Positions 1-9,484 of a DNA stretch of 36,036 nucleotides are shown here, in pieces (the first letter of the stretch is position 1; each line of letters begins with the position of its first letter). The position numbers were made by a program, and so were the translations under genes. This stretch comes from Planctomycetota bacterium (GTDB taxonomy: Bacteria; Planctomycetota; Phycisphaerae; UBA1845), in NCBI GenBank assembly GCA_024276605.1, contig JAJRWX010000077.1, positions 1-36,036 of the forward strand, given 5' to 3'. The notes under the pieces are model-generated. The model had not been told where the DNA came from and did no database searches. It saw nothing but the letters and a program-made list of their open reading frames with translations.

Positions 1-2
1 CC

Positions 3-110
3 CAAGCTCTCTTGACGGCGCTGAACCTGCAACTCCCCGAGGCTCTTCCCCACACAGACGTTCCTGTAGTCACAAGAAAGAAGCTCCCAGAGCGACGTAA
101 GAAGCAGTGA
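3..110 (+). CDS. C-terminal fragment of a probable transposase (left copy)
   Basis: This is an open frame running in from the window edge and ending at TGA 108-110. It encodes about 35 residues with a basic tail (LPERRKKQ). The same coding end occurs in inverted orientation at the other end of the window, so it belongs to a repeated element. A transposase is the simplest reading, but the fragment is too short to name a family. The shared DNA continues about 45 bp past the stop and could end in ...TGAACA, which would fit elements with TG...CA termini. Identity as a transposase is inferred from repetition and not from a recognised domain. Confidence 0.45.
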   Translation, partial: QALLTALNLQLPEALPHTDVPVVTRKKLPERRKKQ

Positions 111-160
111 CGCAAGAGCTTACATGCATCACGGGACCATGGCGAAAGGGTGAACATCCG
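20..160 (+). repeat. Terminal inverted copy of a repeated element (left)
   Basis: Positions 20-160 match the reverse complement of 35896-36036 with only two mismatches that I can see (at 142 and 151). Similarity stops abruptly after 160. The copy includes the end of a coding frame plus about 45 bp of non-coding end. It is probably the 3' end of an insertion sequence present in at least two copies. Confidence 0.85.
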
Positions 161-252
161 CTCAAGGCTGGGGGCTACGTGAAAGATCGTTCATCAAAGT
201 TTCGCATTGTTCGATGTCCATATTTTGAGGATGTGTCAATTCAAATCGCAAC

Positions 253-1224
253 TCAATCACATGGAGGTCCTGCGATTGTACAAATGGCCGATGAAAAATT
301 AATGGCATCGCAAGCGAACGACGTGTTGGGATAACTCAAGCAGTTGAAAGTATCGATTTCATCCCACTCCTCTGGCCCCAGAATTAGGTTCACGCCGCTA
401 GCGGCAGCAACCTCAATCACACTCTGCACAGTGCCATCACGTTGTTGCAAGATTCGTGATCGTTCGGCTTGACAATCTGCGGAGCAGAAAATATTGAAAC
501 CCCGCGACCTCAAATCTTGGATGGCGGCAGAACGCTCAATATTAACCTGACGATCAATTTCACTATTCAATAAATCGATCTTGGCAAAGAACAATTCAGT
601 TTCAAGTGGTGTTAGGAAAGAAAAGGTGTCACCAGAATTAAATGATGGTAAATCACACGCATCGCCAAACCCATTGAAGTTTGTGTCAAGTTGGTCCGGG
701 TTGAATACTGTAGGGCAATTATCGAAGCAAAGGTCTGGAAAGCCATCCTGGTCCGCATCCAAATCAAGTATGCCACAGCCACAAAATCCCGGTGCCATTT
801 TCAACGGGTCAAATGGGCACAGGTCTGTAAATGGTTGTTCTACTATAGGTTCAGGTTGAAAAAAGTATACGAGGTTGACAATCTGAACACGACATGTCTC
901 GCAAGCATTGGTAACGCATGATGCTACGAATGTATCCAATGCTTGTTGCCGTGTAGTTCCACTGTCCAGGTTTTCCCGAGCTGATCCAAACAATGGTGCC
1001 GTGTCGCAAATGCCTATATTACAGCATAAACGAGTCACCTGTTGCTCGGGTGTCTCAAGGAATAGGGGTGGGGAAGATTCATCCGCTGGGATGGATGGTG
1101 GCGGCGTGGCGTCTATTACGTCGGGTAGTGCTAACGTTGCTTGTGGCTCTTCGGTTGGTGTATTAGTCACGCCGCAGCCCGCAAGTAGAAGCAAACAAAA
1201 CGTCAGTCGTATGAAGTGTTTCAT
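253..1224 (-). CDS. Cysteine-rich lipoprotein with a thrombospondin type-3 repeat
   Basis: This 323-residue protein starts with a short basic N-terminus and a hydrophobic stretch ending in the lipobox LLAGC (Cys17), so it should be a lipid-anchored exported protein. Residues 60-150 are rich in cysteines. Residues about 153-192 form a calcium-binding thrombospondin type-3-like repeat (DxDxDGFPD...DNCP...DTNFNGFGDAC). Such tails are frequent in planctomycete secreted proteins. Its ATG overlaps the stop of the upstream gene by four bases (ATGA, 1221-1224), so the two are probably translationally coupled. The gene ends about 90 bp from the repeated element at the window edge. Its specific function is unknown. 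Confidence 0.75.
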   Translation of the reverse strand: MKHFIRLTFCLLLLAGCGVTNTPTEEPQATLALPDVIDATPPPSIPADESSPPLFLETPEQQVTRLCCNIGICDTAPLFGSARENLDSGTTRQQALDTFVASCVTNACETCRVQIVNLVYFFQPEPIVEQPFTDLCPFDPLKMAPGFCGCGILDLDADQDGFPDLCFDNCPTVFNPDQLDTNFNGFGDACDLPSFNSGDTFSFLTPLETELFFAKIDLLNSEIDRQVNIERSAAIQDLRSRGFNIFCSADCQAERSRILQQRDGTVQSVIEVAAASGVNLILGPEEWDEIDTFNCLSYPNTSFACDAINFSSAICTIAGPPCD

Positions 1225-1784
1225 GGCCCTGTCAACTCAATCTGCATTATTGAGTAGTCTCGTAGGTCAACATCGCAGTCGCCGTCTAAGTCTGAAATCA
1301 ACGTACCATTTACATCTACATCCGCCACCAACGGAGTTAATACGCAAACATCGTATACATCTGGAACACCATCACTATCGGCATCATCGTCACACACATT
1401 ACCGAATCCGTCTCCGTCGTGGTCGTCATTACCAAATAGGTCTCCGCTTAGGATCGTTTCGTAAATGAACCTGTCATGTGCATCGGGATTGGGTTCGCCA
1501 AAACCTGCAAAACCACCCCATAGCTCTGAGCCTTGATTAAGCTCAAAAGTTGCAAACCTATCTCCAGAGCCACCATCCGGCGTATAGCGACCTTTTGCTA
1601 CCTGTATTACACCTCCGAACCGACCATCAGCGATTCCATCCTGTAGGTCAGCGTACGCGGTAGACCATGATGTACCGTCGTGGATTGGGCCGGGAGCGTC
1701 GGCGTCAACGTAAATGATGCGACCATCAGCAACTGATATAGCGGACAACACCACGATGCATAATAGATCACACTTCGCAACCAT
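1221..1784 (-). CDS. Short secreted protein: beta-helix N-terminus joined to TSP3/dockerin-like tail
   Basis: The start at 1784 is chosen because AAGGAG lies seven bases upstream and a signal peptide (MVAKCDLLCIVVLSAISVADG) follows. A longer GTG-started frame to 1970 has neither. The 187-residue product has the planctomycete motif YVDADAPGP...DGTSWSTAYADLQDG, which usually opens a long right-handed beta-helix domain. Here, after ETILSGDLFGND (about residue 109), it passes straight into a calcium-binding tail (DHDGDGFGNVCDDDADSDGVPD) and a dockerin-like end (DLDGDCDVDLRDYSIM). The beta-helix body that I expect in full-length relatives is absent. It is coupled to the downstream lipoprotein gene by an ATGA overlap. 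Role unknown; probably cell-surface. Confidence 0.65.
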   Translation of the reverse strand: MVAKCDLLCIVVLSAISVADGRIIYVDADAPGPIHDGTSWSTAYADLQDGIADGRFGGVIQVAKGRYTPDGGSGDRFATFELNQGSELWGGFAGFGEPNPDAHDRFIYETILSGDLFGNDDHDGDGFGNVCDDDADSDGVPDVYDVCVLTPLVADVDVNGTLISDLDGDCDVDLRDYSIMQIELTGP

Positions 1785-1973
1785 ATTATTGCTCCTTGAT
1801 CTCATTGAACTTGGCCAACCGTGGCGTGATTTGAAAAGTCGTTTCCCTGACGGATTCCAGTTTACCAGATGCGTATGATTCTCACAACTTAAACGTTTTA
1901 GTGTTAGACGATTTTTGCAATGAGCGTCATAATACCAGCAATGGGTCTGTCTTAGGATTACTTCTGACACAGA

Positions 1974-3095
1974 CTATTCGACGTTCTTATCCCTCGACTC
2001 AACCGCGCAGGTGGCCTTGCTAACAAACGCGATTATCTCGTCCACTGTTCCTGAAGGCTTAGATACAACGTCATATTGCTCTATGCCTTCGACTCCGTTT
2101 AATAACACTCTTAGATAGTCTGCGTTAACAGCCCAATTCACATTCTGTGGAAGCGAGCCGGTGATTTCTACAAAAGTACTTACTGCGGCAGTGGACGTGA
2201 TAAGGCCAACTACACAACCTTCGGAAGCAACTAACGCTCCGCCTGAGTTACCTGGCTGTACCGGCACTGTTACTTGAAGTCGTGACGCTTCATCGGATAC
2301 ACCTGTTGTAGCACTTATTACCCCCTCGGTGTATTTGCTTTCAGTTCCGAGAATGCTTGGCGCTGGTAACCCAATTGTAAACACTTTTTGTCCTTGTTTA
2401 ATCGAATTGGAATCGCAGAGTGACAGGTGCGATGTTTGCTTTGTATCCACTTTGAGAAGCGCGGCGTCGAACGCACGAGAGTGTTTAACTAGCGTTGCAT
2501 CTTGCCATTCGTCATTGCCAAACCGAACACGTATGTGATCGCTATCTTTGACAACGTGGTATGCTGTAAGAATATGCCCACCACTGGATATTGTAAATCC
2601 GGTACCACTTGCTAGCTTTGGTGCGTTTTGAATTGGTTCTGTCAACTGAGTTTCAATGGGTTCAAAGAATAATTTCACCAGACTACAGCGTTGTATCTGT
2701 TTCTTAGCTAAAACTTCATTCGTATGTGTATAGCGTCCAGTAATTACACTCCAGCGCAGAAAGTAAAGATTTTCTGGTTGTACGTTGATTTTAACTGGGG
2801 CTGTTGAAATATACGATCCGAATGTGGAAAATTCGTGTACACCTGCGGGCAAATCAAAATATGCAAAAGTATCGGGGGCTAAGTCAGCCACGTGCTGACC
2901 ATCGACCTCTAAAGGCAACGTAAGCGCGCATCCCACATAATTATAAGGGCGGTAGCAATATACCCGACCTCTTTGATGTGGGGGTACGAAGGTTTTTGCA
3001 ACATCGTTGAGTGAAGACGTAGCCAACGGCACAGTTGCACATCCTGTGAGCAATGTGACTAAGATTACGAATACGGTGAGAATTGGTCTCCGCAT
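1974..3095 (-). CDS. Lipoprotein with trypsin-like serine protease domain
   Basis: The start at 3095 is supported by AAGGGAG nine bases upstream and an immediate signal sequence with lipobox LLTGC (Cys19). The 373-residue product has two parts. Residues about 40-145 resemble the DUF2846-type domain of small lipoproteins (RVYCYRPYNYVGCALTLPL...). Residues about 160-345 are an HtrA/trypsin-like protease with the full triad: His180 (TAYHVV), Asp210 (DAALLKV) and Ser284 (PGNSGGAL). There is no PDZ domain at the C-terminus, unlike DegP/DegS. It should sit on the periplasmic face of a membrane. The stop is TAG. It is divergent from the unknown gene at 3276 and about 190 bp upstream of the secreted-protein pair, so it may share transcription with them. 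Confidence 0.85.
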   Translation of the reverse strand: MRRPILTVFVILVTLLTGCATVPLATSSLNDVAKTFVPPHQRGRVYCYRPYNYVGCALTLPLEVDGQHVADLAPDTFAYFDLPAGVHEFSTFGSYISTAPVKINVQPENLYFLRWSVITGRYTHTNEVLAKKQIQRCSLVKLFFEPIETQLTEPIQNAPKLASGTGFTISSGGHILTAYHVVKDSDHIRVRFGNDEWQDATLVKHSRAFDAALLKVDTKQTSHLSLCDSNSIKQGQKVFTIGLPAPSILGTESKYTEGVISATTGVSDEASRLQVTVPVQPGNSGGALVASEGCVVGLITSTAAVSTFVEITGSLPQNVNWAVNADYLRVLLNGVEGIEQYDVVSKPSGTVDEIIAFVSKATCAVESRDKNVE

Positions 3096-3181
3096 AATCG
3101 AAAGCTCCCTTCTTATCTTTAGCCGCATGCTATTCGTATTCTTCTGATTATGATATAGTACCCCCCGATGGGTTCGTCGAG

Positions 3182-3193
3182 CGATGCGCATCG
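3182..3193. repeat. 12-bp perfect palindrome in a divergent intergenic region
   Basis: CGATGCGCATCG reads the same on both strands. It lies between the divergent protease and the unknown gene at 3276, within a GC-rich stretch. It could be an operator, but no repressor can be assigned. Confidence 0.35.
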
Positions 3194-3275
3194 TAAGGCG
3201 GCAACGCGGTCGCGGTTTGGCTCGGCTTTTATCCTCGCCGACGCCTGCCTTGACCGGCCCAGCCAGAGGATAAAT

Positions 3276-4172
3276 ATGCCAAACAAATCAGTTAATCACG
3301 CTGTCATAGAAGTTCTTGAAATCAAGGACATCCTGGTCCGTCTAAGCATTAACTGGAAGGAAATAGATGTGACGCAGGATGCCTCAAACCTGCACACCAG
3401 AAAACCCTTCGTTGTGCCTGGGGACGGGAAAACTTTGTCCGTCCAAATATCGATTCCTGTTCCTAAGCGTGGCGGTGAAGTTTCCGAGGATGAGGACAAC
3501 GAAGAATCCAACCATCCGCTTGTAACGGCAATTGAGATTATAAAAGGGTGGACCGGAGAAAAATGGGACGACTTGTGGGAAGCCGCATTACGAGTCAATT
3601 CCGATTTTGGGCTGGATGCACGTATCAAGCGAGACGGAACAAAGTTGCCAAACCTCAGCTATTTGCTGCCGATATTACAAAGGCTGGACAGCGATGGTTA
3701 CAACGTGAGGCTGCTAGTTAGATTATTTAGGGAGCATCCTGACGAGATGCAAAAGTTGGGCTTCGATAAACCAGTTATTGACCCGCCAGTATTAGCCGAT
3801 GCGGCATGGGACAAGGTGGGACAAGCTGATAGAGAGCCAAATAGCGATGCTGCAAAACGTACAAAGAATTTGCCACCTCGCATAGAGCGAGCGGGGGAAC
3901 AGTACAATTGGTGCGTAGATGTATTGAGCGAAAAAGATAATTCCATGAAGGCTCCCACCGATGATGAGATATATACATATCTTGAAAACGCCGTATCGGA
4001 GGTGGAAAAGCTAGGCAGACAGGTTCCAGAAGTGCTAGAGTCGCTTGGCCGGCGAGATAACTGGAAACGGTACTTAAGCGAATACAGAAAAATAACACGT
4101 ACGCATAAAAATACTCCCCCCCTTGGCCGAGACGAAAACTCCGGTTCTGTCGTAAGACTAGAACAAGTTTAG
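3276..4172 (+). CDS. Protein of unknown function, 298 aa
   Basis: I do not recognise this protein. The start at 3276 follows AGAGGA with five bases of spacing; a longer frame from 3168 covers GC-rich DNA unlike the rest of the gene. The product is soluble-looking and highly charged, with no signal peptide or membrane span. It has an acidic patch near residue 75 (EVSEDEDNEESN) and helical, charge-rich segments in the C-terminal half. It lies just upstream of the integrative-element genes in the same orientation and ends 17 bp before the first of the GGATG repeats, so it may be cargo or an early gene of that element. TAG at 4170-4172 ends it; the frame then happens to stay open for 59 codons. 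Confidence 0.6.
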   Translation: MPNKSVNHAVIEVLEIKDILVRLSINWKEIDVTQDASNLHTRKPFVVPGDGKTLSVQISIPVPKRGGEVSEDEDNEESNHPLVTAIEIIKGWTGEKWDDLWEAALRVNSDFGLDARIKRDGTKLPNLSYLLPILQRLDSDGYNVRLLVRLFREHPDEMQKLGFDKPVIDPPVLADAAWDKVGQADREPNSDAAKRTKNLPPRIERAGEQYNWCVDVLSEKDNSMKAPTDDEIYTYLENAVSEVEKLGRQVPEVLESLGRRDNWKRYLSEYRKITRTHKNTPPLGRDENSGSVVRLEQV

Positions 4173-4188
4173 GTTATCGCATCACTTC

Positions 4189-4299
4189 AAACAGGATGTC
4201 CTTCCAAACAGGATGAAAAACCGGATGTTTCATATTATTTTTTGAAACCGAATCCCCATTTCCGAGTATCTATCACAGATTCGTCCCTAAAAGCGGATG
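4189..4299 (+). repeat. Four direct copies of an AAAnnGGATG motif (iteron/operator-like)
   Basis: AAACAGGATG occurs at 4189-4198 and 4206-4215, AAACCGGATG at 4218-4227 and AAAGCGGATG at 4290-4299; the last two continue into T-runs. An inverted core (CATCCGG) lies at 4319-4325. The set sits in the 229-bp non-coding gap just upstream of the excisionase-type HTH gene. It is probably a binding array for that protein, or part of an origin or attachment complex. Confidence 0.55.
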
Positions 4300-4401
4300 T
4301 TTTTACGTCCCTCTACGCATCCGGTCCGTGGACTGTGCACGGCGTTCTTTGACCGTAGCAGGTTGCTACTGGCACGCCGCTTAGAAACGGAGAATAAATT
4401 A

Positions 4402-4620
4402 ATGATTGCAGAACCCGAAACGATTGTACGTGAACTCTTGGACGCGAAATCGGTCGCGATTTTATTGGATTGCTCGCCGCGCCATGTTGTGCGGCTTGCG
4501 GATTCCGGCCGGCTTCCAAGGCCTTTGAAGGTCGGTCGCCTAACTCGATGGCGACGAGAGGATATTTCCGACTGGGTGTTGGGCGGTTGCCCTTCTATCG
4601 GGAGGGGAACATCGCGATGA
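4402..4620 (+). CDS. Excisionase/AlpA-type helix-turn-helix protein
   Basis: This 72-residue protein starts at 4402 after GGAG with nine bases of spacing. It is a single MerR-like helix-turn-helix of the excisionase family: a helical hairpin (LLDAKSVAILLDCSPRHVV, residues 12-30) followed by the typical wing RLADSGRLPRPLKVGRLTRW and a DISDWV helix. Such proteins act as recombination directionality factors or as small regulators in integrative elements. It is the first gene of a tightly packed set. Its TGA overlaps the next ATG (ATGA 4617-4620). The GGATG repeats directly upstream are the natural candidate binding site. Whether it drives excision or regulates transcription cannot be told from sequence. 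Confidence 0.8.
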   Translation: MIAEPETIVRELLDAKSVAILLDCSPRHVVRLADSGRLPRPLKVGRLTRWRREDISDWVLGGCPSIGRGTSR

Positions 4621-4907
4621 AATTAAAACATGAAGCGAAGGCATTCTGCGACTTGCTCTGGGAGGCTGCAACCCGTCAGCGATTGGGGGGTGATATAAGG
4701 AAGTCGGAGTTTTTTAGGTCGCAAGCGGAAAAATTGCGACATCGATATGAAAAAAGGCCCCCCGAAATCGGTCGCACGACTCGGGGAGCAAGTTATTCCT
4801 CCACATCCGGAAATTCTAACTACGAATTCGAAATCTACAATGGACGGATACCATTTACTGCTCGTGAGCGTGCCCTCATGCGATTATGCGCGGAGGGTTA
4901 TTTATGA
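4617..4907 (+). CDS. Small protein of unknown function in the integrative element
   Basis: This 96-residue protein is not recognised. Its ATG overlaps the stop of the HTH gene and its own TGA overlaps the next ATG (4904-4907), so all three genes are coupled. The N-terminal 45 residues are helical and basic (EAKAFCDLLWEAATRQRL...KSEFFRSQAEKLRHRYEKR). The C-terminus ends in another amphipathic segment (FTARERALMRLCAEGYL). There is no signal peptide and no cysteine motif. Location between the excisionase-like and initiator-like genes suggests a role in replication or its control, but nothing more specific is supported. Confidence 0.65.
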   Translation: MKLKHEAKAFCDLLWEAATRQRLGGDIRKSEFFRSQAEKLRHRYEKRPPEIGRTTRGASYSSTSGNSNYEFEIYNGRIPFTARERALMRLCAEGYL

Positions 4908-5485
4908 ATATGAGCAATCCTGCGATACAGGCATGTCGAGAACTCGCGGCTGCCTCCAAGCACGCAGGAAATATACTTGTAATTTTATGGGCGCTCTCGA
5001 ACGGCAAGCGCCAAGTCAACGTGACACGTATTACGCTCTGTGACATTTCAGGACTTCACAAGAGCACAATCACCACGGCTATGCACGCTTTGCATGACTG
5101 TGGATTCATCCGGCGAGCGTATGGTTGTGTGCCCGGTCGAAAGTGGTATCGGGTCACTCTTTTGGCCTCCCCTTGGGCCGTCAAAACCGTCTCTAGGGAA
5201 GCACGAAAACGCACCCCTAAAGCCGTTAAAAGTGACTCAAGGGGAGAAAGCAGAGTCACTCAAAACCGTCTCAAGGGGGGTGCGCCCCTAAAGCCGGAAA
5301 AAGTGACCTTACTCTCTAGAGAGAGTAGGGGGCCGGTAAACCGTCCGCCTCACTCGCCTACCGGCTCAGGCGGACCACCGGCCCAGACACCAGTGCCCAC
5401 AAATACCAACGGAAAAATCAATACTGCGGAGCCGGGTGAGATTTCCATCGCGGACCTCGTGCGTGGGGAGGCCGTCGATGCGTAA
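4904..5485 (+). CDS. Winged-helix replication-initiator-like protein
   Basis: This 193-residue protein starts at 4904, preceded by GGAGGG at six bases. Residues about 22-88 form a winged helix: helix-turn-helix (ITLCDISGLHKSTITTAMHA), then DCGFIRR and a wing ending GRKWYRVTL. The remaining half is low-complexity, rich in Pro, Arg, Lys and Gly. Its DNA carries direct repeats that lie in different reading frames in the two copies, so the repeats are conserved as DNA and not as protein. A DNA-binding N-terminus, a linker overlying repeats, and a helicase gene immediately downstream match the plan of the phage lambda O/P module, though no sequence relationship to O is claimed. The gene overlaps the primase-helicase by eight bases. 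Confidence 0.65.
   Translation: MNMSNPAIQACRELAAASKHAGNILVILWALSNGKRQVNVTRITLCDISGLHKSTITTAMHALHDCGFIRRAYGCVPGRKWYRVTLLASPWAVKTVSREARKRTPKAVKSDSRGESRVTQNRLKGGAPLKPEKVTLLSRESRGPVNRPPHSPTGSGGPPAQTPVPTNTNGKINTAEPGEISIADLVRGEAVDA
5181..5326. other. Candidate replication origin: direct and inverted repeats inside the initiator gene
   Basis: Unit A (TCAAAACCGTCTCTAGGG) is at 5181-5198 and recurs at 5260-5277 with one mismatch. Unit B (23 bp, starting CCCCTAAAGCCG and ending AAAAGTGAC) is at 5214-5236 and 5285-5307 with two mismatches. Between the B1 and A2 units, AGTGACTC (5231-5238) is mirrored by GAGTCACT (5253-5260), and another GTCACTC lies at 5153. A 12-bp perfect palindrome, CTCTCTAGAGAG, follows at 5312-5323. 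The A and B copies are offset by 79 and 71 bp, so they are read in different frames. This is the pattern of an iteron-type origin overlapping a coding region. Confidence 0.5.
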
Positions 5486-7367
5486 TTTGGATTTTATTCG
5501 TAGTGACAGGAATTTGCTGGTCGGGTCGTTGGTTGATGCCGGTACGGAATTCTCCGGGAACAGTTGTCGATGCCCGTTCCACGACGACAGACACCCATCC
5601 GCCGGAATATTTAAGCGAGATAACTCAACCGCGTGGCTGTATCGCTGTCATGGGTGTGAGTGGACGACGGAAGGGAAATCGACGGGAGATGTTTTCGATG
5701 TTGTGAGGAAAACCAGTGGGTGTTCGTTTGATGAGGCATGTTCCCGGCTTGGGGTTGCGGATGCTAAGCGGCACGGACAGGCTCATGCAAGTGGGAATGG
5801 AAAAAACTCAAAATCAGCTTCGGCTACTGATTTGGGCAAGTTCGCTGCCGATGCTCACCAACGACTCATGAGCGATAAGGCAGCGCTGGAGCATCTATTT
5901 CAGTCGCGCGGTGTCGACGCTGAAACGGCGAAACAATTCCGGCTGGGCATCACCGGAGAACCTGGGCGGCGATACTGGACATTCCCCATCGAACGCGATG
6001 GGCAGGTGATTGCACTCAAGTCCCACGCGGTTGACGGGCAGAAGCCTAAATGTCAGTGGAATCTCCCTGATGGTGTAGGTAGTAATCAGATTTACCCTAT
6101 CGCCCTGGATGCTCCCGGCTCGATTTGGTTGTGCCCCGGTGAATTGAAAGCCTTGGCAGTCGCTAGCATTGGACGGAAAGCCATCGGCATCACCTCCGGG
6201 GAAGGTAACGAAAAAACGCCGACTAGTCTTTCTCAAGAAGTCATCGAAGTAATAAAACAATCCGGCGAAGATGTAGCGATTCCCTGTGATGATGATGACA
6301 CCGGCAAGGCTTGGGGGCTGCATATCCGGCAACAGCTTAGCGATGTTGGTATCGAAGCGCGCGTCGTTGACTATGGGGCGAACAAAAGAGCCGGGGTAAA
6401 AGATATTGGCGACTTCATCACGCAACGGCTCGTGGAAGATGTCAAAGAGCCAACCGCAATAGCTGCGACACTGGACAACCTATACCGGCGGTCAGACCCG
6501 TGGCACGGAACACGCATCGCCGACCTTTGGAGTAATCCGTCAACGTGGCAACCCGTTGAGACATTCAGCACCGGCTGGGATGTGTTGGATCAAGCGATTG
6601 GCGGCGGACTTCGAGTTCGGGCGGTTACCATGTTGGTCGGTAAACCCGGACACGCTAAATCTCAATGTGCCGTTACTATGGCACTCAAAGCCGCACGTGC
6701 TGGAACTGCATCGGTGATATTCTCCCTTGAGTTAGGTGCAGACGAAATCGCCCAACTTGCAATGGCACAGTTGAGTGACATACCTCGCAGCGTGCTATCG
6801 CGTGGCACGGTACATGGTGAATACGCAAACAGTCTCGGTAATGTGCGAGAACAACACGCCAACCTTCCGTTGGATATTTTGGATGACAATCGCTGGCGTA
6901 ATGGTTTGACGCGCGATTCATTCGCTCGACTTGTTGCCGATGGGGTGAAGCGTTTTGGATGGCGTGTGGTCGTTCTGGATTACTTGGGTTTGATGGCGAT
7001 GATGGAAAGCGACTCGACTGATTACCGCGCCGATGTTTTGAACTCAACGGCGTTACGTGCAATCGCACGAGAAAATAATGTTGCCCTCGTTGTTGTAGCT
7101 GCGCTGCGGAAGTCGCAAGCCGTTAGGAAAATGAAACCGGAAGAATTGATGCTCGATGATGTCATGGGCGCCGGTCGGTTGGTCTACGACGCATCATCCG
7201 TCCTTCATATCTGGCGTAAATTTGGTGATATTGATACCGGCTTAATATATATCAAAATACTGAAAGTGAGATACGCGCCCATGCCGAACGAGCCAGTGCA
7301 ATTACGCTGGAGACCACAAAGCGGGGCGATTGAGGATTTACTGACGGAAACGGGACCGAGAAGGTGA
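5478..7367 (+). CDS. Primase-helicase: CHC2 zinc finger, TOPRIM and DnaB-type ATPase
   Basis: This 629-residue fusion should make primers and unwind DNA for replication of the element. The start at 5478 overlaps the upstream gene by eight bases. Residues 30-60 form a CHC2-type primase zinc finger (C32-P-F-H35 and C57-H-G-C60). Residues about 215-300 are a TOPRIM domain with Glu222 (PGELKALAVAS) and the acidic run DDDD at 271-274. Residues about 365-610 are a RecA-fold helicase of the DnaB/gp4 type: Walker A at 388-395 (GKPGHAKS), Walker B ending in Asp501 (VVVLDYLGL) and a late GAGRLVYDASSVLHIW motif. In Walker A the Gly before Lys394 is Ala, which is unusual. The combined layout recalls phage T7 gp4 and phage satellite replication proteins. 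Confidence 0.88.
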   Translation: MRNLDFIRSDRNLLVGSLVDAGTEFSGNSCRCPFHDDRHPSAGIFKRDNSTAWLYRCHGCEWTTEGKSTGDVFDVVRKTSGCSFDEACSRLGVADAKRHGQAHASGNGKNSKSASATDLGKFAADAHQRLMSDKAALEHLFQSRGVDAETAKQFRLGITGEPGRRYWTFPIERDGQVIALKSHAVDGQKPKCQWNLPDGVGSNQIYPIALDAPGSIWLCPGELKALAVASIGRKAIGITSGEGNEKTPTSLSQEVIEVIKQSGEDVAIPCDDDDTGKAWGLHIRQQLSDVGIEARVVDYGANKRAGVKDIGDFITQRLVEDVKEPTAIAATLDNLYRRSDPWHGTRIADLWSNPSTWQPVETFSTGWDVLDQAIGGGLRVRAVTMLVGKPGHAKSQCAVTMALKAARAGTASVIFSLELGADEIAQLAMAQLSDIPRSVLSRGTVHGEYANSLGNVREQHANLPLDILDDNRWRNGLTRDSFARLVADGVKRFGWRVVVLDYLGLMAMMESDSTDYRADVLNSTALRAIARENNVALVVVAALRKSQAVRKMKPEELMLDDVMGAGRLVYDASSVLHIWRKFGDIDTGLIYIKILKVRYAPMPNEPVQLRWRPQSGAIEDLLTETGPRR

Positions 7368-7457
7368 TTGAGTACGGAGCGAGTTAGTGAATAATTTCAC
7401 AAAGATACTGAGCACATTGGCTAATGCTTTAATGAAGCGATAAGTTAAGGTGAAATA

Positions 7458-9095
7458 ATGGCAAGCGTTCGTAAGAAAACATTCACAAAGTCTATTCCAC
7501 CTGATGCGGAATTCTTCACACGCAGAGGGAAGGAATACGCCCGATGGAAAGGTCGCAACGGTAGAACGAAAACGGCAATAGTAACCACAATCAAAGACGG
7601 TTCAAAACGACTATCGATTGAATCGGCGACTTACGTGGCTCGATTTCGTGATGGCGCTGGTATCATCCGTGAGGTTTCTACCGGGTGTCGGGATCGGGAT
7701 GCGGCGATAACTGTGATGAATAAATTGGTGTCTCGGTCGGAAAAAGTGAAATCCGGGATTCTAACTCCGACTGAGGATGCTATTGCTGACCACCAGCGGA
7801 CGCCAATCGGAGTGCATGTGGCTGCCTATCTGACGCACCTGTTAGCTAAGGGTGTATCTGAGCATCACCACCGAAACGTCAAACAGCAGCTTGAACGTAT
7901 CGTGGAAGAATGCGGGTTCCGCCGACTATTGGACTTAGACGGCTCAACGATTGAACAATGGCTTACTGGCTTACAAGTTTCAGCGAGAACGAGAAATACA
8001 TATCTCTCGAACGCAATTTCCTTTGCCAACTGGTGCATTAGGACCAAGCGAATCGCTAGTAATCCATTCAAGGGTGTTGCCAAAGCCGACCAGCACGCTG
8101 GAAAGACCCGAACTCGACGGGCACTAACGGTAGATGAGTTTAAGCGATTGCTTCGCGCTGCAAGGATTAGACCGTTGCTCGAAGCGAAAACTATCCGAAA
8201 GGGGTCGAATAAAGGCAAGCAAACAGCATCCGTGAAGCCGGAAGTTTGCCAGCGACTTGAGATGCTAGGTATGGAGCGGGCGTTGATATATAAAACGCTC
8301 GCACTCACCGGACTACGAAAATCGGAGCTTTCATCCATTACGATTGGTCAGCTCGACCTCGAAAGTCCAACATCGTACATATCACTGCACGCAGCCGACG
8401 AGAAAAACAGAAAAGGCTCAGAAGTGCCCCTTAACGAAGACTTGTCATGCGACTTACGTGAATGGGTTAGCCGTAAATTGAAAGTCGCACAGGACGCCGC
8501 AAAACGCGAGCTACGAGCAATTCCAATGCGTCTCTCACATGGCACTCAACTCTTTCGCATTCCGAAAGCACTCACGCGCGTTCTCGATGCCGATTTGAAA
8601 TGGGCAGGCATTGACAAGACGGACCTGCGTGGTCGTACTGTAGACATCCATGCACTACGAATGACTTTTGGTACCTGGCTTAGTCTAAATGGCGTAGCGC
8701 CACGTACCGCACAAGCAGCGATGAGACACTCGGACATCGATCTTACGATGAATGTTTACACTGACCCAAAGCTTTTGGACGTAACCGGAGCCGTCAATGC
8801 TTTACCGTCTCTACCCCTAGACGGTGAACGCGAAGTGACAGAACAACAGGCAACTGGGACAGTAGACGAGCGGCGAACGCTTGCCCCACTGCTTGCCCCA
8901 GCTACTGGCCAACGAAGCATATCGCTGACATCTACTGACAAAACCAACCCGTGTAGGGTAGGTACCAAAGACACTAGCGTAATGCACGTAAGTGTCGCTG
9001 CTGACAGGACTAAGGCACCACTGGCACCATCTGTCAACAACCACCCCCAAGGGGACTCGAACCCCTGTCTCCAGGATGAGAACCTGATATCCTAG
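7458..9095 (+). CDS. Tyrosine-type site-specific integrase
   Basis: This 545-residue tyrosine recombinase should integrate and excise the element at the tRNA-Glu gene. The start at 7458 follows AAGGTG by six bases. The SAM-like core-binding region is at about residues 118-210, followed by the catalytic domain with Arg287 (TGLRKSEL), His398 and Arg401 (HALRMTF), His424 (MRHSD) and the nucleophile Tyr434 (MNVYTD). The last residues (PQGDSNPCLQDENLIS) are the antisense translation of the tRNA-Glu gene, and the TAG stop lies inside the tRNA. The gene therefore runs into its own attachment site, a common arrangement for tRNA-targeting integrases. About 100 residues between Tyr434 and the tRNA tail are low-complexity. 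Confidence 0.93.
   Translation: MASVRKKTFTKSIPPDAEFFTRRGKEYARWKGRNGRTKTAIVTTIKDGSKRLSIESATYVARFRDGAGIIREVSTGCRDRDAAITVMNKLVSRSEKVKSGILTPTEDAIADHQRTPIGVHVAAYLTHLLAKGVSEHHHRNVKQQLERIVEECGFRRLLDLDGSTIEQWLTGLQVSARTRNTYLSNAISFANWCIRTKRIASNPFKGVAKADQHAGKTRTRRALTVDEFKRLLRAARIRPLLEAKTIRKGSNKGKQTASVKPEVCQRLEMLGMERALIYKTLALTGLRKSELSSITIGQLDLESPTSYISLHAADEKNRKGSEVPLNEDLSCDLREWVSRKLKVAQDAAKRELRAIPMRLSHGTQLFRIPKALTRVLDADLKWAGIDKTDLRGRTVDIHALRMTFGTWLSLNGVAPRTAQAAMRHSDIDLTMNVYTDPKLLDVTGAVNALPSLPLDGEREVTEQQATGTVDERRTLAPLLAPATGQRSISLTSTDKTNPCRVGTKDTSVMHVSVAADRTKAPLAPSVNNHPQGDSNPCLQDENLIS
9042..9095. other. Probable attachment site (att junction) in the tRNA-Glu 3' part
   Basis: The integrase coding frame overlaps the 3' part of tRNA-Glu, so one element boundary must lie here. 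I looked for a second copy of the tRNA 3' end (acceptor and T-arm) to the left of 9042 and did not find one. The other boundary is therefore lost, diverged or outside the window, and the exact crossover core cannot be fixed. Confidence 0.55.
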
Positions 9096-9114
9096 GCCAC
9101 TAGACGATGGGGGC
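9042..9114 (-). tRNA. tRNA-Glu(CUC)
   Basis: The minus strand folds into a full cloverleaf of 73 nt without an encoded CCA. The acceptor is GCCCCCA paired with TGGGGGT, leaving a terminal G-U wobble. There is a GTCT...AGGA D-arm, an anticodon arm TCAGG/CCTGG with loop TTCTCAT (anticodon CTC), and a T-arm AGGGG/CCCCT with loop TTCGAGT. The discriminator base is G, as in many tRNA-Glu. Its 3' half is overlapped by the end of the integrase gene on the other strand, which marks it as the integration target. The element may have supplied the present 3' end, which could explain the G-U terminal pair. Confidence 0.93.
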
Positions 9115-9484
9115 ATCTATGGTGGAAATAGCATACGGGCCGAGAAGCGGGGTCGTCAAGTCAACTGGCTAGTAACGAATTTCGTTGGGTGTAAGACCGA
9201 ATCAGCGGCGAGCCATGTCAGAGCACCTGGCGCAAGCCTGGTGACATACTGGTCTGTGGGCGCAGGTGGCCAAGTTGACTCATCTGGTCCGCAGGCTCGC
9301 GCCATGCGGCTCTTACTCCGGCTCGCACAGTGGTTTTGATCGCATGTCCGCAGGCCTGCGCCGGTGGCTCTGATGGGGCGTACTCATTTTTCCGGAATTG
9401 TCTGGTAGCGCCTTTAAGATGGCGTCGCCGAAGTGTGGTGATCCTGCTACGATACGATATGAATTAATCGCGTGGGAGTGTGAA
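9115..9484. repeat. Gap upstream of uvrB with degenerate palindromic (REP-like) repeats
   Basis: This 370-bp stretch has no convincing gene. It holds related GC-rich blocks: one at 9221-9245 (core CTGGCGCAAGCCTGGTG) and two in the opposite orientation at 9286-9312 and 9345-9370 (cores GTCCGCAGGCTCGCGCC and GTCCGCAGGCCTGCGCC). A weaker one is at 9251-9272. Written on one strand they share a core close to GGCGCnnGCCTGCGGAC. The first can pair with either of the inverted ones. They look like a small cluster of dispersed palindromic repeats. Confidence 0.5.

Follow-up and report, generated by a model that had tools for sequence, protein, structure and literature searches.

Four iteron-like units were identified inside the replication initiator gene of an integrative element from a Planctomycetota bacterium (Phycisphaerae, UBA1845), and the array that they form is predicted from its sequence to be, probably, an in-gene origin of a known kind. 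The window is the whole stretch of DNA that was analysed, namely 36,036 bp of contig JAJRWX010000077.1 in assembly GCA_024276605.1. It is likely that the units at 5169-5316 serve as iterons for the winged-helix protein of their own gene and constitute all or part of the element's origin.

Repeat array and initiator protein

The gene and the repeats within it are as follows.

4904..5485, + strand: O-like/DnaD-like winged-helix initiator gene, 193 aa (PHROG profiles, AlphaFold2 model)
5169..5200, + strand: iteron-like unit 1, including copy A1 (5181-5198), AAAA core at 5183
5214..5245, + strand: iteron-like unit 2, including copy B1 (5214-5236), AAAA core at 5228
5231-5238 and 5253-5260: inverted pair, AGTGACTC and GAGTCACT
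5248..5279, + strand: iteron-like unit 3, including copy A2 (5260-5277; 18 bp, one mismatch to A1, offset 79), AAAA core at 5262
5285..5316, + strand: iteron-like unit 4, including copy B2 (5285-5307; 23 bp, two mismatches to B1, offset 71), AAAA core at 5299
5310..5327, no strand: short palindrome immediately 3' of unit 4, 8-bp arms and 2-nt loop (TACTCTCT-AG-AGAGAGTA), within which CTCTCTAGAGAG (5312-5323) is nested

The repeats, described in the first-pass annotation as two A and two B copies conserved at the DNA level, were found at these positions with a signal exceeding all shuffles. The repeat score, defined as the sum of the two best direct-repeat diagonals per 171 bp, was 32 at 5160-5330, ranking first among 897 windows over 36 kb, and was reached by 0/400 dinucleotide shuffles (maximum 20) and 0/400 synonymous-codon shuffles (maximum 21). 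However, A and B belong to a single repeat family and not to two independent ones: the core MSKHAAAASYGWCYY is common to all four copies, occurring as CGTCAAAACCGTCTC at 5179, CGTTAAAAGTGACTC at 5224, ACTCAAAACCGTCTC at 5258, and CGGAAAAAGTGACCT at 5295, and the core consensus, built from these four copies, had no further match anywhere in the window. Unit 2 is identical to unit 1 at 23 of 32 positions, and only these two carry CCCCT to the left and AGGG to the right of the AAAA core. The spacing from AAAA to AAAA is 45, 34, and 37 bp. No perfect dyad with arms of at least 6 and loops of at most 7 was present within the units, and by the same definition the palindrome at 5310-5327 is the only perfect hairpin of the initiator gene. 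The GC-skew profile, proposed earlier as a check on the origin, was positive throughout about 3-8.5 kb and did not single out the array, as no switch occurred there.

Regarding the reading frames, the earlier statement of a frame difference between copies is correct within the A pair and within the B pair but fails for units 1 and 2. Relative to the initiator gene, the cores of units 1 to 4 are in frames 0, 0, 1, and 2, respectively, with units 1 and 2 encoding AVKTVS and AVKSDS. This shared frame would fit an alternative in which the repeats are protein-coding, that is, a basic repetitive linker under amino-acid selection, or a recent functionless duplication. Such an explanation is very unlikely, considering that units 3 and 4 occupy the other two frames, that none of the synonymous shuffles reached the score, and that the copies in a related initiator gene (locus L016) lie at offsets of 71 (26-bp copies) and 35 (19-bp copies).

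The initiator matched the PHROG profiles 186 (DnaD-like helicase loader, 3.7e-5), 270 (replication initiation, 2.3e-4), and 391 (O-like initiation, E 0.0013), as well as Pfam HTH_36 at 2.4e-4, short of the curated cut-off. In the AlphaFold2 model (six sequences, mean pLDDT 65.6), a winged helix spans approximately residues 6-86 with pLDDT blocks of 68-94, whereas the tail from residue 94 is mostly below 50 and predicted to be disordered. The profiles and the model together uphold the earlier assignment of a winged helix to the gene product. As the core of unit 1 falls at codon 94, the array coincides with the DNA for the predicted disordered tail, behind the modelled winged helix. A PDB fold search with the model returned no match at E 0.001 (the best being CodY at 6.8e-3), and a tblastn search with the initiator against phage records returned none at E 0.01. 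Foldseek against viral models yielded six matches below 0.001 (E 2.7e-4 to 9.9e-4), one of them named lambda GpO N-terminal (E 3.9e-4), with a TM of only 0.35 for a partly disordered query.

The integrative element

The neighbouring features of the window are listed below.

4402..4620, + strand: excisionase-like HTH_17 gene (HTH_17 2.3e-8; PHROG 66 1.5e-6)
4617..4907, + strand: small ORF between the excisionase-like gene and the initiator, nothing above cut-off in Pfam or PHROG
5478..7367, + strand: primase-helicase fusion (Pfam Zn_ribbon_DnaG 1.3e-6 and DnaB_C 4.4e-20; PHROG 239 2.4e-35)
7458..9095, + strand: tyrosine integrase (Phage_integrase 8.8e-16), its 3' end running into tRNA-Glu
9032..9087, no strand: right attachment core, 56 bp, identical to positions 26311-26366 of contig C2 of the same genome (G000), the element's left end
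9041..9115, - strand: tRNA-Glu (CTC), integration target

The first-pass annotation had proposed that the next gene is a primase-helicase and that the module belongs to an integrative element, and both proposals were supported: the start of the primase-helicase gene, with its DnaG zinc ribbon and DnaB C-terminal domain, overlaps the end of the initiator gene, and the integrase lies at a tRNA-Glu. The 56-bp core is duplicated, and a sister genome (G023) has an empty site in which the tRNA is uninterrupted, thus setting the limits of the element at C2:26311 and window 9087. At the empty site, the sequence to the left of the core resembles the C2 side and that to the right the window side; one flank contains uvrB and the opposite flank a gene that, judged by eye, is related to the ACT-domain gene of C2. 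The two genomes differ in a 482-aa ORF, which in the window's genome separates the ACT-domain gene from the left core and is missing at that place in the sister genome. No second attachment core was found within the window, the other copy being on C2. The element therefore comprises C2 from 26311 to the contig end (5,727 bp) and positions 1-9087 of the window, with an unassembled gap between them: the contig ends share no overlap of at least 12 bp, and so the middle was not assembled. The element at tRNA-Glu is integrative and at least 14.8 kb long.

The C2 part (L014, 9915-12129) carries genes for a serine recombinase, for an AAA protein that weakly matches a clamp loader, and for an ArdC-like protein containing a zincin-like domain. 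A Pfam scan of 16 element proteins, all from the assembled parts, recognised no capsid, terminase, or relaxase. A sigma-70 scan of 4100-7500 gave 2 sites against 3.4 expected and was uninformative. Outside the element, a dispersed intergenic repeat occupies 9180-9325 between tRNA-Glu and uvrB; among the matches listed, dozens of partial copies occurred in the window's genome and in the sister genome, and few in G024.

With a tyrosine integrase and an excisionase-like protein encoded by the element, and with a helper-dependent lifestyle possible, the units might instead serve another DNA transaction, as arm sites for the integrase or excisionase or as a packaging or transfer site. This is very unlikely, as about 3.7 kb separate the units from the attachment core (9032-9087), and such repeats accompany the initiator gene both in viral contigs and in the G045 element (L016/L033), where the helicase precedes the initiator. 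On the preferred reading, in which the units are iterons of an in-gene origin, the integrase would excise the element from tRNA-Glu, the initiator would bind the four units side by side on its own gene, bend the DNA, and form a nucleoprotein complex, and the bound initiator would recruit the primase-helicase from the overlapping next gene. Loading of the helicase close to the array would then initiate theta replication, allowing the element to replicate autonomously.

In-gene repeats in related initiators

The module recurs in Phycisphaerae in varied gene orders (L017/L030 in G041, L016/L033 in G045, and L031, L032, and L034). Of the family's 51 genomes, G041 and G045 contained relatives of the initiator, and profile searches added weaker matches from G042, G076, and G172 (sets of 114 and 397 genomes); no close homologue was found among viral contigs or in the other sets searched. 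The initiator genes of L016, L031, and L034 had repeat scores of 36, 43, and 41, respectively, each reached by 0/100 codon and 0/100 synonymous shuffles; the array of L031 is very clear, with GGTGGGTACAGGCGTACCC occurring three times inside the gene (559-640), 35 and 24 bp apart. By contrast, the scores of L017 and L032 (15 each) were not above chance, so that repeats were present in 3/5 Phycisphaerae homologues and not detectable in 2/5. The two genes without repeats come close to the contrary case that the first-pass annotation had named, homologues conserving the protein and lacking the repeats. The L017 gene may be damaged, as its profile match runs through a TGA. In the negative controls, namely the helicase (16), integrase (13), and uvrB (18) of the window, no score was above chance, and that of the L031 helicase (21) was reached by 6 and 7 of 100 shuffles.

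The unit sequences differ from element to element. A shared iteron motif was sought, and position weight matrices from the window and from L016 each missed the other's repeats among the 12 best sites; no common motif is therefore claimed. A conserved hairpin behind the array was likewise considered and rejected: the window, L016, and L031 have one, whereas L034, L106, and L109 do not. Scanning of 36-bp windows showed hairpins of such size in 18/96 for the L016 gene and 18/76 for the L031 gene, and the hairpin behind the array is thus only suggestive.

Other repeats were observed around these genes. In L016, a second repeat pair (CARGTTGGCATATACCCTG, 24 bp apart) lies at 7139-7181, 3' of the initiator gene of the G045 element. 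Upstream of the G041 initiator (L017, about 8210-8300), several GTAC-containing repeats were noted by eye, including CTGTACACAA twice, and these are possibly the origin or operator of an element without in-gene repeats. Furthermore, the initiator profile weakly matched a 516-aa protein of L029 (G042), encoded close to a ParA-like ORF, and the strongest direct repeats there are upstream of the gene, not inside.

A first survey covered 86 loci with related primases, 70 of them with a callable helicase ORF. Scores of at least 24 were obtained for 6/38 same-strand ORFs directly upstream versus 18/511 other ORFs (p 0.004), the latter including the L031 and L033 initiator regions, which were called on the opposite strand; among helicase ORFs there were 3/70. 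A cleaner set (n = 55) combined 53 upstream ORFs with the initiator of the window and the downstream initiator of L033, omitting 7 of 60 upstream ORFs because of a length of at least 700 aa. Twelve of these 55 ORFs exceeded all 40 synonymous shuffles. Initiator-type ORFs, defined by PHROG class at E 1e-3 (replication initiation, O-like, DnaD-like loader), did so in 10/12 cases versus 2/43 of the others (p 1.4e-7). The initiator-type misses were L030 and L032, and the two positives among the others were L078 and L031 (winged-helix by alignment, without a PHROG match). Since the L107 signal includes a GACAGA microsatellite, the count without L107 is 9/11.

In an independent set of 392 Planctomycetota genomes, PHROG 391 had matches in 48 and PHROG 270 in 73 (E 1e-5), revealing that related initiator genes are common in a phylum where the first-pass annotation had supposed such elements to be little described. 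The best 30 matches per profile gave 42 loci (60 minus 15 duplicates and 3 with internal stops), and 28 of these 42 initiator genes exceeded all 40 synonymous shuffles, or 27/41 after L131 was dropped because its signal is a 51-nt run of G. Scores of at least 24 were found in 26/41 initiator genes versus 2/80 neighbouring ORFs (p 9e-14), with a median array start at nt 309. The best offset was a multiple of three in 15/28 genes (14/27 without L131), so that part of the set may consist of protein repeats; an offset scoring at least 10 that was not a multiple of three was found in 19/28 genes, L131 counted. Overall, the surveys suggest that in-gene repeats are frequent among the winged-helix initiators of phage-like elements in Planctomycetota. 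Arrays at such a frequency (27/41) would make it possible to find candidate origins in Planctomycetota by sequence alone. In the open-access literature searched, no survey of in-gene origins in this phylum was found, which says little, as most subscription journals lie outside it.

The same test was applied to phage genes. Lambda O (24), ES18 gp59 (27), and epsilon34 gp50 (31) each had a score reached by 0/100 shuffles, as did a Marin hypothetical protein (26) and Saroj gp69 (29), and the score of Saroj gp70 (16) was reached by 29 and 32 of 100 shuffles.

DNA unwinding and comparison with known systems

No AT-rich stretch adjoins the array: the AT content of the 60 bp downstream is 0.35-0.38 versus 0.45-0.46 for the gene, and the DNA that would melt was thus not located. 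When the gene and 200 bp more are considered, the 40-mer of lowest stability is 169 nt downstream of the window's array, whereas in lambda, ES18, L034, L106, and L109 it starts at most 16 nt from the 3' edge of the array (array limits of L034, L106, and L109 set by eye). Among the measurable genes of the Planctomycetota set, it lies -20 to +60 nt from this edge in 16/27, placing the window in the minority, and a 40-mer at or above the 95th percentile occurs near the edge in 22/27. The corresponding near-edge percentiles are 0.888 for the window and 0.946 for L016, both short of the 95th, and 0.990 for L031 (least stable 40-mer at edge -20). The window's element, lacking beside its repeats the unwinding element that would be expected there, is an informative exception.

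Upstream of the excisionase-like gene, the region 4189-4325 contains five AAACMGGAT-like 9-mers (4189, 4206, 4218, 4245, and 4290) and an inverted CATCCGGT at 4318, and surrounds one of the element's least stable stretches (40-mer at 4209, among 3200-9087). It is a candidate operator, Xis/Int site, or second origin.

The main rival explanation is that the units bind the initiator as control sites, for autoregulation, handcuffing, or incompatibility, with the origin elsewhere, for example in this AT-rich region. It draws on the lack of a melting element beside the units, on the low-stability 40-mer at 4209, and on the repeat scan, in which the best non-overlapping window starts at 4161 (score 22). 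However, in lambda, ES18, epsilon34, and SPP1 (oriL), the in-gene array falls at an origin or binding site that is known or annotated, and a position before an excisionase-like gene would be usual for operators or Xis/Int sites. The control-site explanation is accordingly considered unlikely.

Within the preferred reading of an in-gene origin, the array might represent a distinct subtype with a pitch of about 35 bp (45/34/37 in the window, 35/36 in L016), no adjacent AT-rich element, a short hairpin immediately behind the units (window, L016, and L031), and an element-encoded primase-helicase. This proposal is doubtful; if true, opening would proceed by hairpin extrusion or by the primase-helicase, and not at an AT-rich melting site.

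An in-gene origin is textbook for lambda, in which the O iterons lie behind the DNA-binding domain and the loader P uses the host DnaB, unlike the window's element with its own primase-helicase. The array starts at nt 277 of the gene in the window, 348 in lambda O, and 341 in ES18, and the position is thus like that of the lambda iterons. AAAA occurs in 3/4 lambda iterons and in 4/4 window units; the lambda iterons are 18 bp long and 20-24 bp apart, whereas the window units are about 32 bp long, at most weakly dyadic, and 34-45 bp apart. The earlier designation of a lambda-O-type origin is sustained in part, by the in-gene repeats, their lambda-like position, and their recurrence in other initiators, but not as regards the AT-rich unwinding stretch, the absence of which beside the array is the main difference from lambda. 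According to PMC3349717, the lambda origin lies inside gene O and combines four iterons of 18 bp with an adjacent AT-rich stretch of 38 bp. The gene following O serves helicase loading, and the window resembles this arrangement in having four iteron-like units inside its initiator gene and a helicase gene next to it.

ES18 and epsilon34 resemble the window in combining an O-like gene with a T7 gp4-like primase-helicase (22.8 and 23.0% identity to that of the window, respectively), and their records annotate an origin or initiator-binding site inside the O-like gene. In contrast to the window, both are phages whose genomes include a lambda-like immunity region, initiator and helicase are separated by a 108-bp gene where the window's genes overlap, and the ES18 array has an AT-rich stretch next to it. 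The oriL of SPP1 comprises direct repeats located inside gene 38 and bound by gp38, and, unlike the window, the phage has a separate loader and helicase, a second origin (oriR), and an AT-rich element, according to PMC6316719. In phage-inducible chromosomal islands (PICIs), the origin follows rep on its 3' side and consists of an AT-rich region between two sets of iterons, whereas the window's array lies inside the gene with no flanking AT-rich region; according to PMC6092414, PICIs are small integrated elements with an integrase, an excision function, a primase/initiator, and an iteron origin, features also seen or, for the origin, predicted in the window's element.
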